Shown one piece after another: positions 8,901 through 62,800 of a stretch of DNA of 64,000 nucleotides (position 1 is its first letter; every line of letters starts with the position of its first letter). Both the position numbers and the translations under genes were made by a program. Origin of the DNA: Asterochloris sp. CNOR1. Taxonomy: Eukaryota; Chlorophyta; Trebouxiophyceae; Trebouxiales; Trebouxiaceae. The DNA is taken from positions 3,224,001 through 3,288,000 of the forward strand of contig OZ017752.1 in assembly GCA_963969365.1 (NCBI GenBank), read 5' to 3'. A model generated the notes under the pieces. The model saw only the letters and a list, made by a program, of their open reading frames with translations, ran no database searches and was not told where the DNA came from.

Positions 8901-11900
8901 GGATTGCTGGGCAGCGCCCTGCGTGTCGGCATCAGATGTCAGGGGACTTAGGGTATAGAGGGCAGATGCTCACATCCTGGGATTGCACAGTAGGTATGGC
9001 TCTGCCAAGGTGTCGTCAAGGTTGTGTTGCTGCTGCCTGCAGATCCCAGACTCAGTAATTTCACAGCCAGGCTCTCATTTCACACATTTGGTGGCATCGC
9101 CAGCAAGTCGTCAACATGGTGATGCTGCTGCCTGCAGAGTCCCAAATCCTGGTGGCCCGCAAGGATGAGCTGAAGCAGCTGCGGCGCGCCATCCCCTACA
9201 AAGTGGGCATGCAGACGATGCTGTTTGCTGCCCCCGTCCTGGCCGCAGTTGCATCGTTTGCAGCCTACGGCGCGGCAGACCCCACCGCCTTCACGCCTGC
9301 CCGCATCTTCACGGCCATCTCCCTGTTCTCCCTCATGCGCATGCCCCTCATCTTCCTGCCGTTTGCGCTGGTACAGGTGCGCCTTATTGTCTGGGCTTGT
9401 CGTCAAGCATTTGTGTTCTTACGCTTGCATTCCGTGACGCAACTGTCAGCAGTGCTCTGCGCACTATTGGAGCACCGTTTCATGGTCTTGCCTGCAGTCC
9501 CCCCTGCAATGCCTTGCCTGCAGCTTATAACTCCCCTGTCAGCCGCTGATGCTGCATGAACCTGCCTGCCCATAGCTTGGCAATGCTCTGGTGTCCATGC
9601 TTCATTAGTGTGCATTCTGTTGGGTGTGTCTGCAGCTTTCTCTGCGTTGCCTTGCCTGCAGCCTGGCAGCAGTCAGGGCTTGGCAGCCTTGCGACTGCCC
9701 TGATGGCCACTGACCCTGCATTGGTCTGCCTGCCTGCAGCTTGGCAATGCTCTGGTGTCCATGCGGCGCCTGACTGGCTACCTGGTCATGGAGGAGCGTG
9801 CTGATGCTGTTGAGAAATTGGAGCACCCGGGAGCGCAGATCAAGGTGCTGCTTGCCTCTTCCTGTGTTGCCTTAAATCTCTCAGGGGCCGCGGCAAGCCA
9901 ATGCTGCAGCCGTGGTGCTCGGCTTCATCACACCTCCATGTGCAGGCTGCAGCATCACTGCACATACTGTTTACGGTTTACCATGCCTTTTTAAAATTTG
10001 CATACCTTTGCTGCATGAACCAGTACCACTAAAGTGGTGCAGCCCTGCTACGGTGTGTGCTGCCTGGCCACAGCACGCTTCATATCACAGCTGTGCTTTT
10101 CTGTGGCTGCGTGCATGAGGTTTTCTTTGGTGCTTTTTCTCCAAGAGCAGTCTGGTCAGCAACCCACCTTGCTGCCTTCTTCAAGCTCACTGTTTTGCCA
10201 CTGTCTGCTCCCAGGGGGCATCCTTCTTCTGGGCAGAGCCCCCACCCCAGGCAGACGCCAAGAAGCCCAAGGGCAAGGCAGCAAAGAAGCAGGCGGCGGC
10301 TGACAAGGCGGCCGCCCAAGCCTCCGAAGACGCCACCAGCGCCAAGACTGCCCAGCTGGCGCCAACCGGCACGCCCCCGCTGTCTCGCATTGGGCGGGGC
10401 GTGGCAGGGCTGCGCCACGCCCTGGGGCTGCGGGACCGCACTGCTGCGCAAGCAGCGCTCCCAGGAACAGCAGATGAGGCGGCAGGGCTGTCCACCACGA
10501 GTGTAGAGGTGTGGTGATATTGCATCAAAAGCGAGGGCTGCATTGTTCGGGACTCCCAAGGTCTGCATCTGGCTCGAATTGATTGTCTGTAGGCTGGAAA
10601 CTGGTCAGGCACCTGAGCAGCCGTGGTGCCACTTCAGTGCCTGCTCTCTCCAGCAATCAAGTCTGCACTCGTCACTCAGTTGCTCAAATGCCAGGCACAT
10701 GACCTCTGCCACACATCTGAATGCAAGGCTGTCCATGAGGACTGTAAGCTGCCTTTTTCTCGCATGTTGGACGGTCTGTGGATGAAGTGACTCATATCTA
10801 CAGTATTGGGTCTGACTCCTGCCCCATTGACCTGCCAGGGCAGCGCAGACGGCGGTGTTCAGGCCCCCTCAGTGGCACGCAGCAGCACCGACGCTGACTC
10901 AGTGGCTGAAGCCAAGGCCCAGGCCATGCAGCTGCAGCTGCAGCAGCAGGTAGGTGGAGGTGACTAGCACCATCTGCCGTCCACACTGCATTTCATGTTG
11001 GCTGTCTTCTGTCTCACACATCAGCAGAAGCTTGGCTGCCAGTTGCTTGGTTGTGTGTCACCAGACCATGCTGCACCCCATTCCTGCTGTCAAGACTTTG
11101 CGCCTATTGCAGCAGGGCAGCCAATTTTTAATGCTGCAAGTCCCTGCAAACCTGCTAAAAGTGTCCTCACTTGAAATCCGAGTGGAGCAGCACAGCTTGG
11201 AGGGCTGTCACTGAACTTGCTACCTGGCCAGTGGTGCTGAGACGTAGGGTGTCCGCGGTGCAGGGCGGGCTTGGTGGCGCGCCCACAGATGGCACCGCCG
11301 GCGACGCCGACGCAGCTGTGAACGATGCCACCTGGTGGTTGCGCAATGTGGACCTGGAGGTTGGGGCTGGGGAGCTGGTCTGCGTGGTTGGGCGTGTGGG
11401 ATGCGGCAAGACCAGTCTCATCTCCGCTCTGCTAGGTGAGGGCTTGATATCACGGCTGGGTTGCGCAATCAGGCTCTGAATTTCGGCAGCACCAGCCTCG
11501 TGTGGGCTGCTTTGCAGCTCGATGCTGTAGCGGGCCTATATGAACTGAAATGAATTTGCATGTGACTCCCATCATTTTGGAGGCAAGGTGGCACGCCATG
11601 CCACGTTAATTCAGATTGTGTGGGTACGCAGCAAGGCCCAGCAGGCCTCCAGGCTCTGCAACACAAGTTTTAGACCTTTGGCCACATGTGTGCAGGCGAG
11701 ATGGAGCGCCACACAGGTTCAGTGCGTGTGGGGGGCCAGCTAGCTCTGGTGGCCCAACAAGCCTGGATCATCAACGCCTCTGTGCGGGACAACATCCTGC
11801 TGGGACGTGACCTGGACGATGCGCGCTGGGAGGCCTGCGTGGAGGCGTGCTGCCTCTCTCAGGACTTCAAGGTCAGCTGTGGTGCATGCCACTCCTCAAA

Positions 11901-59840: not shown

Positions 59841-62800
59841 CGGTATGGTCTATGACCACTCCCCCTTCTGCCACTACGCCGAGGACGGAGGTGTGAGTGC
59901 TATGCTGTCAGGCGAGGTCTCCCACTGGCCCGGCATCGATGCAGTTTCCAGCCAGCACGACGGTGAGCCCTCCATGCGTTGTCTGAAGGATTGCAGCAAG
60001 GACAGGCAGGCAAGATAGGGGCCCAGGGGCCGTCCCATGAGATGACATGGCTGCCTTGCCCGTCATGGGTGATTGTGACGCCGAGCATTGAAAACAGCAA
60101 CTGTACACGCAGCAGCAGCCAGGCGCTGACATAAGCACACTTTGAATTACTGAACGCTGTGCAACAGGTCCTGGTACCTGCCAACACATACAGTGGCCAG
60201 CGAAAAGAGGCACTGCAAGCCAGGCTCATGGCCTGGCTCCAGTGATGACTCATCTCCTGCTGCGGCAAACGCTTAGCTGATAAAGTGCTGATGCATGCCT
60301 GGTGCTGCAGCGGGGATGCAGGCAACCGAGTGCTCAGCGAGGCTCAATGTCTGCCTCTGCATGAGCCTTGGCTGCCTGCTGGTGCATGGCGGGCCATGTA
60401 GCAAACAGCACAGCTCATCAAGGCTGGCTGTAGCCTTGGACTCAGTGTCTGCAGAAGCGCCTGTAGTCTGCCACAGACATTCGCTCCCTGCCTGGGCATC
60501 AGGAGCACAGCATTGCCTGCTGGCAGCAACAGACTCTCGCCCAGTCAGCTTTGCGGGCATGCCTTAGACTCTGATGCCTGCCACCGACCCTTGCTCTGCC
60601 TCCCTGCTGCTGCAGCATGGGTGCAGGGCAATGCGTCATACAGCAATCTCGCTGTCTGCCACCCACTCTACTGCCTGCCAGAGGTTCTCACTTTGCCCGT
60701 TACCTGCTGCAGCATGGGTGCGGGGCGACAACGCGCATAGCGAGGCTCACTGGCTGCTGGAGTTCTACTCAGCATTTGCAGGAGCTCCCACGGGGCAGGA
60801 CAGGACGGAGTCGTGCCTGACCGCACTGGGCAGGATCCAGGGCCACTTTGGTGCGCTGAGCAAGTTGCCGTCTAGCTGTGCATGCAGACAACAGTTGCTG
60901 CAGGGTAGCTGTATCGATCCATCAAGGCCAGGTTAGGCCGGTGCTCTCCAAAAGGGGCATGACCACCAGCATCAGATCTATGAGTGAAGCAGGGGCCTTA
61001 CTCTGGGTGCATTCAGACCTGATCTCCTATGATGGCGTCACCGCAGGGGCCTCAGATGCTGGGCCGCATTGGCTGCGCACTCCTGTGGCTGCTGCCTGCT
61101 GCACCTGCGACAGAGCTGCTGGCAGTGCGCGCGCATGCTGCATGCTGCTGGCTGCTGCATAGATGGTGCCTCTGCTTTGCAGACTGCTGGACTCCAGGTC
61201 CGCATGCTTTGTCACATGGCATGTCTGAGAGGCACTGGGCCTTCTTGTGCTGCAGCCTTTGTGATCTATGATGGCCTGCGTCGAAGGGTGATGGCAGCCA
61301 GGGATGCCGAGGGCAGGCAGGTGAGCTGCTGCAGCAGCCTGCCTCAAGCGCAGCGTGACCTGGCAGCTCATGCCGCAGGCTGCAATCATCAGCTCATGTG
61401 CTGGGTCACTGCCTTTCATGATTGATATCCTGCATCCCTCTGCGCAACTTTTGTATGGTCTCCCGACCTGAAGTGCTGCTTGCCCAGACTTCTGACATGA
61501 TTGATCTTGCTGGCAAGCACACAAAAGCTGTGTCTGCCTGTGCGGCTGCCTGTCTGCCGACAGCTAATGCTGCCCAGGAGGCTCAGTGCTGGCATGCACT
61601 CACACAGCGTCCTCCTGTGCAGCCGCTCTTCTGGGGCGCCACTGACGATGGGAGGTTCATGTTTGGCACGACCCATGAAGACCTGGGCGACTGCAACCCC
61701 ACCGCCACAGCTTTTCCCGCAGGTTAGCCCTTTGTAGGCTGTGTGACCAGTCGGTGGTTTGTGAGATGAACCTCAAGCCCCCTGCAGGTGGCTCTTAACT
61801 GTTGCATGACACATCACCACACATGGGGCCATTTACGGCGAGCAAAAATGGTCGATGGCTGCTGCACAACACTCTGCCCTGCCTCTCAGGGGCCTGCTGT
61901 TCTGGGACTTGTGTGCTTTGCGCCAGTAATTTCCCCAGACCAGAAGGTCTAGACAACAGCTCAGGGCCTGTCAGCCATACCAGTTGCTCCTGTCGGACTT
62001 GTGTTCAGGCTGTGCCAGTGTGTGCCAGTCCTGCTTTGCCTGACAATGTTTGCGGCACAACCCTCAGCTTGCAGGCCTGTTGGCTCTAGGCACCCACAAA
62101 TGTCCCAAGCAGCATGCCGACCGCCCCGCACAAGTTGTCGCGTGCCCCTGCAGGTGCTTCGTGTATTCTGCTTGATGTCCAATGCAGCAGTAACACCAGG
62201 CAGCAGCTGTATCTGCTGTCAACTCTGGGAACCTGCAGGTGCAGCATGCCTGTACTCTGGGAGCGCGGATTGTCTTCTTGCCCCTGCAGGTGCGCTGTAC
62301 GCCAGTGAGAGGTCCCTGGCGGCCATCAACCCGGGCGACCTGGGCTTTGTCATCCCTGGGCAGGTACGAGGCCAGCTCTCTCAAGCACCCACGTGCTGAT
62401 TGCTGCAGCAGGGTGCAGGCTGCACCCTAGCAAATTTATTTGCGGTTTGCTCATACACCTGCTTGCTCGATGCCTGCGTAGACGCCACAGCCCCTGCTTG
62501 TGCTGTGGTCCTCTGTCATGTGATGTCCTTTGGCCCCGTCTGCCGCTGTCACACGTCCTCCCGCCTCTGGCCGGGCACTTCAGCTGTCTCTGTTCCTGGG
62601 TGCAGGCTTGGCCTGGCAGGGTCCTCAGCTTCCTGCCTGGGATGGATGAGCGCCATCCCTGGCGGCCTGTCAAGGTGAGACTCTTGCTCCTGCTGGGAGC
62701 CGTGCTTGAGGCATGCCGTGCATTTGCAGAGCCTCCCTCTCTGGGAATTGCTGCATGCTGGCTCTTGTCCGCTGCATGTTGTTGGCATTTGGCTGAACCT

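Follow-up and report, generated by a model that had tools for sequence, protein, structure and literature searches.

Decayed tandem copies of splice junctions in the introns of a 64 kb stretch of the Asterochloris sp. CNOR1 genome

Genes and sequence comparisons

A stretch of 64,000 nt of nuclear DNA from the green alga Asterochloris sp. CNOR1 (assembly GCA_963969365.1, contig OZ017752.1, positions 3,224,001 to 3,288,000, forward strand), called the window below, was analysed for copies of exon edges and their splice sites lying within the adjoining introns. Duplicated splice-junction copies of this kind, which are termed ghosts here, are real and common in the window: 23 of its 198 predicted splice junctions (~12%) have a recognisable, often decayed duplicate. 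The G+C content is ~57% across the window and the genes coded are intron-rich and eukaryotic; for Asterochloris glomerata a G+C content of 56–62% in 98% of the nuclear genome and ~9 introns per gene are reported (PMC6652019, which like the other papers cited by PMC number is represented here by excerpts). Pfam matches were obtained for seven of the nine predicted proteins or protein parts submitted: an acyl-CoA-binding domain plus ABC transporter membrane region, a class 3 lipase, an SMP-30/gluconolactonase-like protein, an LRR protein, Pex14, a formyltransferase and a DUF3700/GATase protein. As a set they have a green-algal or plant-like look.

Exons are throughout the predictions of an RNA-free gene finder, which was self-trained in two rounds, initially with exons recognised by eye in a single ABC-transporter gene and afterwards with the entire window. 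The acceptor consensus CTGCAG was very strong in the self-trained model over the whole window (T 0.89, G 0.93 and C 0.95 before the AG). In the junction test, each edge (40 exon plus 12 intron bases) was aligned to the remainder of the intron next to it and, as a control, to 400 equal-length stretches from other introns of the window; this test used the uncurated gene model, from which the junctions of exons shorter than 30 nt were dropped (224 reduced to 195). The pair scan was a banded self-alignment that collected direct pairs with a score of at least 32 within 450 nt, controlled by six equal 438-nt offset bands at 3–26 kb. Predicted exons shorter than 20 nt and the doubtful ones at 20015–20080, 37926–37960 and 32086–32107 were relabelled as intron before the pair scan, and all counts from this point onwards use the curated labels. 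Pairs with fewer than five exon bases were classed as intron-only.

Copies of splice junctions

The adjacent intron beat all 400 control stretches at 29 of the 195 junctions, compared with 0.5 expected (three of the 29 sit on predicted exons that were later removed), and the reverse complement of the adjacent intron reached this level at none of the 195. The recurrence of exon-edge copies in the adjoining introns and the retained orientation, both claimed in an earlier sequence-only reading of the window, are thereby borne out. The pair scan yielded 47 near direct pairs (26 exon–intron, 19 intron-only, one exon–exon and one intergenic) and 0, 2, 0, 0, 0 and 1 pairs in the far-offset bands. A BLAST scan within 400 nt gave one inverted and 21 direct pairs at a score of at least 44, and three and 29 at a score of at least 36. 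The copies are thus local: in BLAST bins from 1.2 to 40 kb within the window the mean was 0.01 pairs at a score of at least 40, unlike introner elements, and introner-like distant copies, searched for in the window only, amounted to 0–2 pairs in each of the six bands at 3–26 kb.

The 26 exon–intron pairs contain 23 distinct junctions in seven genes; by tally these are 13 acceptors and ten donors, with ten junctions in the ABCC gene, seven in the lipase gene, two in the SMP-30 gene and one each in the LRR, Pex14-region, formyltransferase and DUF3700 genes. The numbers of exon–intron (26) and intron-only (19) pairs exceed those of independent events: certain pairs have a junction in common, and two ghosts are joined by one of the intron-only pairs. 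The median period of the copies is 102 nt, and exon–intron periods range from 38 to 402 nt. Identities of 73% to 98% in exon–intron pairs and 71% to 100% across all copies indicate that the copies differ in age and make assembly error unlikely.

All 19 coordinates given in the sequence-only reading lie within 15 nt of a direct-repeat pair scoring at least 32, and 17 of them overlap an exon–intron pair (60604, 19930 and 20041 overlap an intron-only pair as well). The other two overlap intron-only pairs only: 20381 is a tandem whose end is 2 nt past an acceptor, and 32001 is intron-only in the curated labels because a doubtful 22-nt predicted exon there was relabelled. The copies listed were therefore real, and the list was short by nine exon–intron pairs, which start at 7150, 9012, 12517, 18463, 25826, 29156, 30531, 33397 and 41884. 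That the copies span the junction was also correct, the junction lying within the matched stretch in 25 of the 26 pairs. The copies that include exon sequence are as follows (window coordinates; periods in nt).

7150–7256, plus strand: acceptor-side copy, period 61, exon start 7231; pair 7150–7195 / 7211–7256, score 32, 74% identity
9012–9144, plus strand: acceptor-side copy in the ABCC gene, period 95, exon start 9138; score 47; ghost acceptor as strong as the real one
9530–9764, plus strand: acceptor-side copy, period 164, exon start 9740; score 72; exon part identical at 25/25 bases; ghost acceptor weakened from 9.7 to -1.5
12517–12658, plus strand: acceptor-side copy, period 103, exon start 12637; score 33; ghost AG lost
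13704–13825, plus strand: donor-side copy, period 76, exon end 13735; score 57
15409–15651, plus strand: acceptor-side copy, period 200, exon start 15621; score 42
17206–17367, plus strand: acceptor-side copy, period 106, exon start 17320; score 65; ghost AG intact
18463–18553, plus strand: donor-side copy, period 66, exon end 18477; score 35; ghost GT changed to GC
19315–19481, plus strand: donor-side copy, period 98, exon end 19348; score 103; 90% identity over 69 nt; ghost donor intact
19837–20089, plus strand: three successive copies of the exon edge ending at 19880, offsets 90 and 110; pairs scoring 80, 68 and 44; 9-nt donor context the same in both ghosts as in the real site
25324–25451, minus strand: 42-nt unit present three times over the acceptor of the exon ending at 25343; score 162
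25826–25952, minus strand: partial copy of exon 25801–25893 in the next intron, period 102; match ends before the junction; score 35
27020–27175, minus strand: complete tandem with both edges of the predicted, uncertain exon 27112–27152, period 72; score 101
29156–29346, minus strand: acceptor-side copy, period 163, exon end 29177; score 46
30531–30790, minus strand: donor-side copy, period 211, exon start 30775; score 36; ghost GT lost
33397–33535, minus strand: acceptor-side copy, period 90, exon end 33440; score 43
35208–35288, minus strand: complete donor-side tandem, period 38, exon start 35284; score 52
41344–41482, plus strand: donor-side copy, period 94, exon end 41370; score 41
41884–41985, plus strand: donor-side copy, period 65, exon end 41912; score 32; ghost GT lost
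44824–45105, minus strand: two donor-side copies of the exon starting at 45048, periods 222 and 103; scores 32 and 51; GT core retained by one ghost, lost by the other
50571–50748, plus strand: acceptor-side copy, period 140, exon start 50728; score 36; ghost AG lost at the aligned position
54774–54979, plus strand: acceptor-side copy, period 122, exon start 54915; score 98; 84 nt at 83% identity; ghost AG lost
60303–60757, plus strand: acceptor-side copies of the exon starting at 60713, periods 97 and 402; scores 41 and 32; ghost AGs intact

Head-to-tail duplication

If a copy arose by head-to-tail duplication, the stretch between the two copies must resemble one predicted flank, and this was examined in a completion test. 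Four of the 26 exon–intron pairs abut already; for the other 22 as a set the predicted flank gave a Fisher p of 1.2e-4 and the opposite flank a p of 0.56. Singly, the predicted flank reached p <= 0.05 in eight of the 22 pairs (one of them 0.05 as rounded) and the opposite flank in one. Among the intron-only pairs five of 19 abut, and the remaining 14 gave a Fisher p of 0.0011. The set, though not each pair, thus supports head-to-tail tandem duplication. With the retained orientation, and with intron and exon sequence copied together, this agrees with the local tandem duplication proposed in the sequence-only reading. Intron sequence is continuous with exon sequence in the copies, so that they do not derive from spliced RNA. 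Eight pairs, drawn from all classes, that abut or slightly overlap extend past a single period by -1 to 18 nt, which would be compatible with slippage or microhomology. No related locus was confirmed among 29 pattern matches in a collection of viral contigs and 186 in a collection of genome contigs, where algal nuclear DNA is not expected.

Probable background duplication and the excess at junctions

It is likely that a background of tandem duplication throughout these genes explains the copies. DNA-level head-to-tail duplication of segments, mostly ~40–220 nt long, would recur throughout the genes, and selection would remove the duplications lying inside coding exons. Those inside introns or straddling one splice junction would be tolerated, since the outermost donor or the innermost acceptor remains available to splicing; splicing at the original sites would give the original protein and a longer intron, and a straddling duplication would leave a ghost of the exon edge and its splice site within the intron. 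Since the exon copy would be under selection and the ghost alone would mutate freely, exon–intron pairs should stay recognisable for longer than intron-only pairs. Replication slippage or end joining would be the molecular origin, and the original splice sites are presumably in use in all of the genes.

The spread of repeats over the introns is roughly even. Repeat coverage of intron bases in nine bins from 0–10 to 240–1000 nt from the nearest junction was 0.111, 0.074, 0.057, 0.078, 0.094, 0.084, 0.066, 0.087 and 0.068, so that the interiors are about as repeat-rich as the edges, with the exception of the first ten bases. Exon–exon pairs are depleted (one, compared with 5.6 under random placement of the same pairs; P 0.015), as expected if duplications within coding sequence are purged. 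The claim that duplication takes place at splice junctions is accordingly borne out weakly: the interiors are about as repeat-rich as the edges and 19 of the 47 near pairs have fewer than five exon bases, and an approximately twofold excess at junctions is left. The process looks mostly like ordinary background duplication that is not aimed at splice sites.

Several observations weigh against this explanation. Similarity to the predicted flank is individually non-significant in 14 of the 22 testable exon–intron pairs. The ratio of exon–intron to intron-only pairs is 26:19 (1.37), whereas geometry alone, taken as the ratio of one-junction to intron-only duplications under random placement with periods like those seen, predicts 0.47; in the ABCC gene alone the ratio is 10:4 and the geometric value 0.69. 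A simulation of detection bias, with selection preserving the exon copy while the ghost decays, predicts 0.54–0.78 over 18 settings (a hand tally of events, 23:16, was used once alongside it). The observed ratio thus remains approximately twofold in excess, with a binomial p of 0.0015 at an expected ratio of 0.54, 0.018 at 0.7 and 0.042 at 0.78 (0.106 at 0.9, a value outside the simulated range); these p values are somewhat too small because pairs that share a junction are not independent. The copied exon pieces are also short, averaging 30.6 nt (25 pairs) with a maximum of 65 nt (26 pairs), compared with 48.7–54.4 nt in a simulation with indels (Kolmogorov–Smirnov p 0.0007–0.017); taken as a share of the period, and leaving out one pair with a period of 402 (26 reduced to 25), the exon piece gave p 0.004–0.067 against simulation. 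Repeat coverage of exon bases is 0.112 at the edge, 0.003 at a depth of 60–80 nt and 0 further in. The periods would permit exon pieces longer than the 65-nt maximum. As a guess, selection against ghosts too similar to the full exon could shorten the copied pieces.

One alternative is a concentration of breaks or slippage at splice junctions, promoted for instance by DNA structures linked to transcription or splicing or by the strong CTGCAG acceptor motif, which would make straddling copies arise more often there than elsewhere. The 26 exon–intron pairs compare with 13.9 (sd 3.1) under random placement, a number as high being reached in none of 2000 placements (detection bias uncorrected), and to this are added the ratio of 1.37 against the simulated 0.54–0.78, the short exon pieces close to the junction and the somewhat raised coverage in the first ten intron bases. 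Intron interiors nevertheless show similar coverage, donors and acceptors are both hit, and modelling of detection bias leaves a modest excess; we therefore regard this alternative as unlikely. It is likewise doubtful that in this lineage a junction bias, about twofold beyond geometry and detection bias, acts together with a filter for short exon pieces, which would make junctions growth points that lengthen introns and continually generate spare splice sites. The junction excess follows in part from geometry and from the better preservation of the exon copy, and a factor of about two is left.

Ghost splice sites and the introns that hold them

Ghosts could instead be functional, as alternative exons or as regulatory decoy splice sites maintained by selection. 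The splice core (GT/AG) is kept in 18 of the 26 cases, among them the ghost sites at 17213, 19446, 19970, 20080 and 60615, and several ghosts equal the real site in score. However, the core is lost in eight, a retention of 18/26 is about that of neutral decay at ~80% identity per base, and the periods leave remainders of 0, 1 and 2 modulo 3 in 8, 9 and 9 cases, without an excess of multiples of three. Neutral-like retention and the flat distribution modulo 3 give no sign of ghosts being used or kept, and functional maintenance is improbable; the alternative exons and splice-site sliding suggested in the sequence-only reading find no support here.

The ABC protein served as a protein-level check. 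With its exons joined, and with the predicted ghost exon 20015–20080 excluded from the query, it matches ABCC2 in three stretches (best E 1.8e-246). The alignment is gap-free over seven copy-bearing junctions (9137, 9739, 12636, 17319, 18477, 19348 and 19880), and the ghosts there are therefore not part of the protein.

Intron lengthening, also suggested earlier, fits the data. The median intron length is 518 nt with junction copies (n = 23) and 314 nt without a detected pair (n = 67; p 1.7e-5; 96 introns in total), although a match is also more easily accommodated in a long intron. Copies that are still recognisable account for 5.5% of intron DNA; periods of up to 222 nt add up to 10.8%, overlapping pairs being counted more than once.

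Creation of introns by duplication of AGGT-bearing exon segments (the Rogers model) is very improbable for this window. The mechanism is known in other species (PMC4974935, PMC2891723) and several copies have intact AG|GT contexts, but gapped donor-to-acceptor similarity within the same intron stayed below a score of 28 in each of the 88 introns that are 121 nt or longer (the highest score was 23, and 28 is attained by 0.58% of mismatched pairs). Eight of the 96 introns, shorter than 121 nt, were left out of this gapped test; six of these shorter introns that scored at least 32 were artefacts of overlapping 120-nt windows. An ungapped test over all 96 introns was not significant (p 0.084). Intron 46712–47117 in the Pex14-like gene, the donor and acceptor neighbourhoods of which are alike at 30 of 64 ungapped bases (a level reached by 0.03% of mismatched pairs), is a lone and weak candidate for birth by tandem duplication. 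Nothing convincing was found for the intron gain raised in the sequence-only reading.

A resemblance of exon edges to introns through chance or base composition, to which the strong acceptor consensus including CTGCAG could contribute, or assembly error, is a negligible explanation given the 29 of 195 junctions against 0.5 expected, the far-offset controls with 0–2 pairs and identities of 71% to 100%, which are unlike those of assembly duplicates; chance is excluded for the set as a whole, and single weak pairs (score 32–35) may be due to it.

Relation to known duplications

Duplications and tandem repeats internal to genes were reportedly the subject of work by Gao & Lynch in 2009, which is cited in PMC4974935.

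In the potato RdRp gene a tandem duplication over an intron–exon boundary made a new intron (PMC4974935). As here, the duplicated unit crosses one intron–exon boundary and carries the splice site along, and the gene also has an 83-bp tandem inside its first intron; in potato, however, the copy was converted into an additional spliced intron and exon, whereas here apparent ghosts lie in existing introns at 23 predicted junctions of one window. In Drosophila, introns have arisen by tandem duplication of a Rogers-type AGGT segment, and population data cited in the same paper have 624 of 1901 duplications including some exon (PMC2891723). The short local tandem duplication bearing splice-like sites is common to both, but none of the 88 introns here has gapped donor–acceptor similarity and one weak ungapped candidate was found. 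Human internal tandem repeats are likewise intragenic and occur in exons and introns (PMC2812944). The internal repeats and duplications described in the excerpts of PMC4974935 and PMC2812944 consist of minisatellite-like units that expanded or of entire introns duplicated along with flanking exon, unlike the single decayed duplications of ~100 nt that predominate here.

Among the matches listed from the open-licence literature, related mechanisms were found but no survey of decayed junction copies inside existing introns. As far as can be seen, the window holds a dense collection of duplications of a known type that apparently made no introns, and their density may be what is special. Numerous events of this kind, spanning all ages within one genome, would allow the rate of junction-straddling duplication to be measured directly, together with the lifetime of spare splice sites, selection on long copied exon pieces and the rarity of conversion to a new intron; the tandem-duplication route to intron gain and growth would thereby become countable.

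Other features of the window

Three of the tandem duplications counted as intron-only are the following.

16960–17074, plus strand: young, exon-free tandem duplication, period 58, 96% identical; score 104
20337–20544, plus strand: complete tandem, period 99, exon start 20543; end 2 nt beyond the acceptor; score 100
37699–37999, minus strand: array of five 61-nt units in the lipase-like gene (TRF); score 389

The youngest arrays are those at 16960–17074, 25324–25451 and 37699–37999. Parts of the 37699–37999 array were misread as small exons by the gene finder. In the same lipase-like gene a long predicted exon of biased composition (27680–28259) lies between conserved lipase exons. The acyl-CoA-binding domain (5129–8175) and the ABC transporter share a strand, the domain being immediately upstream; they were fused by the gene finder and are probably two separate genes. 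In the ABCC-type transporter (8579–22242), ~240 residues between the first nucleotide-binding domain and the second membrane domain are unaligned to ABCC2.

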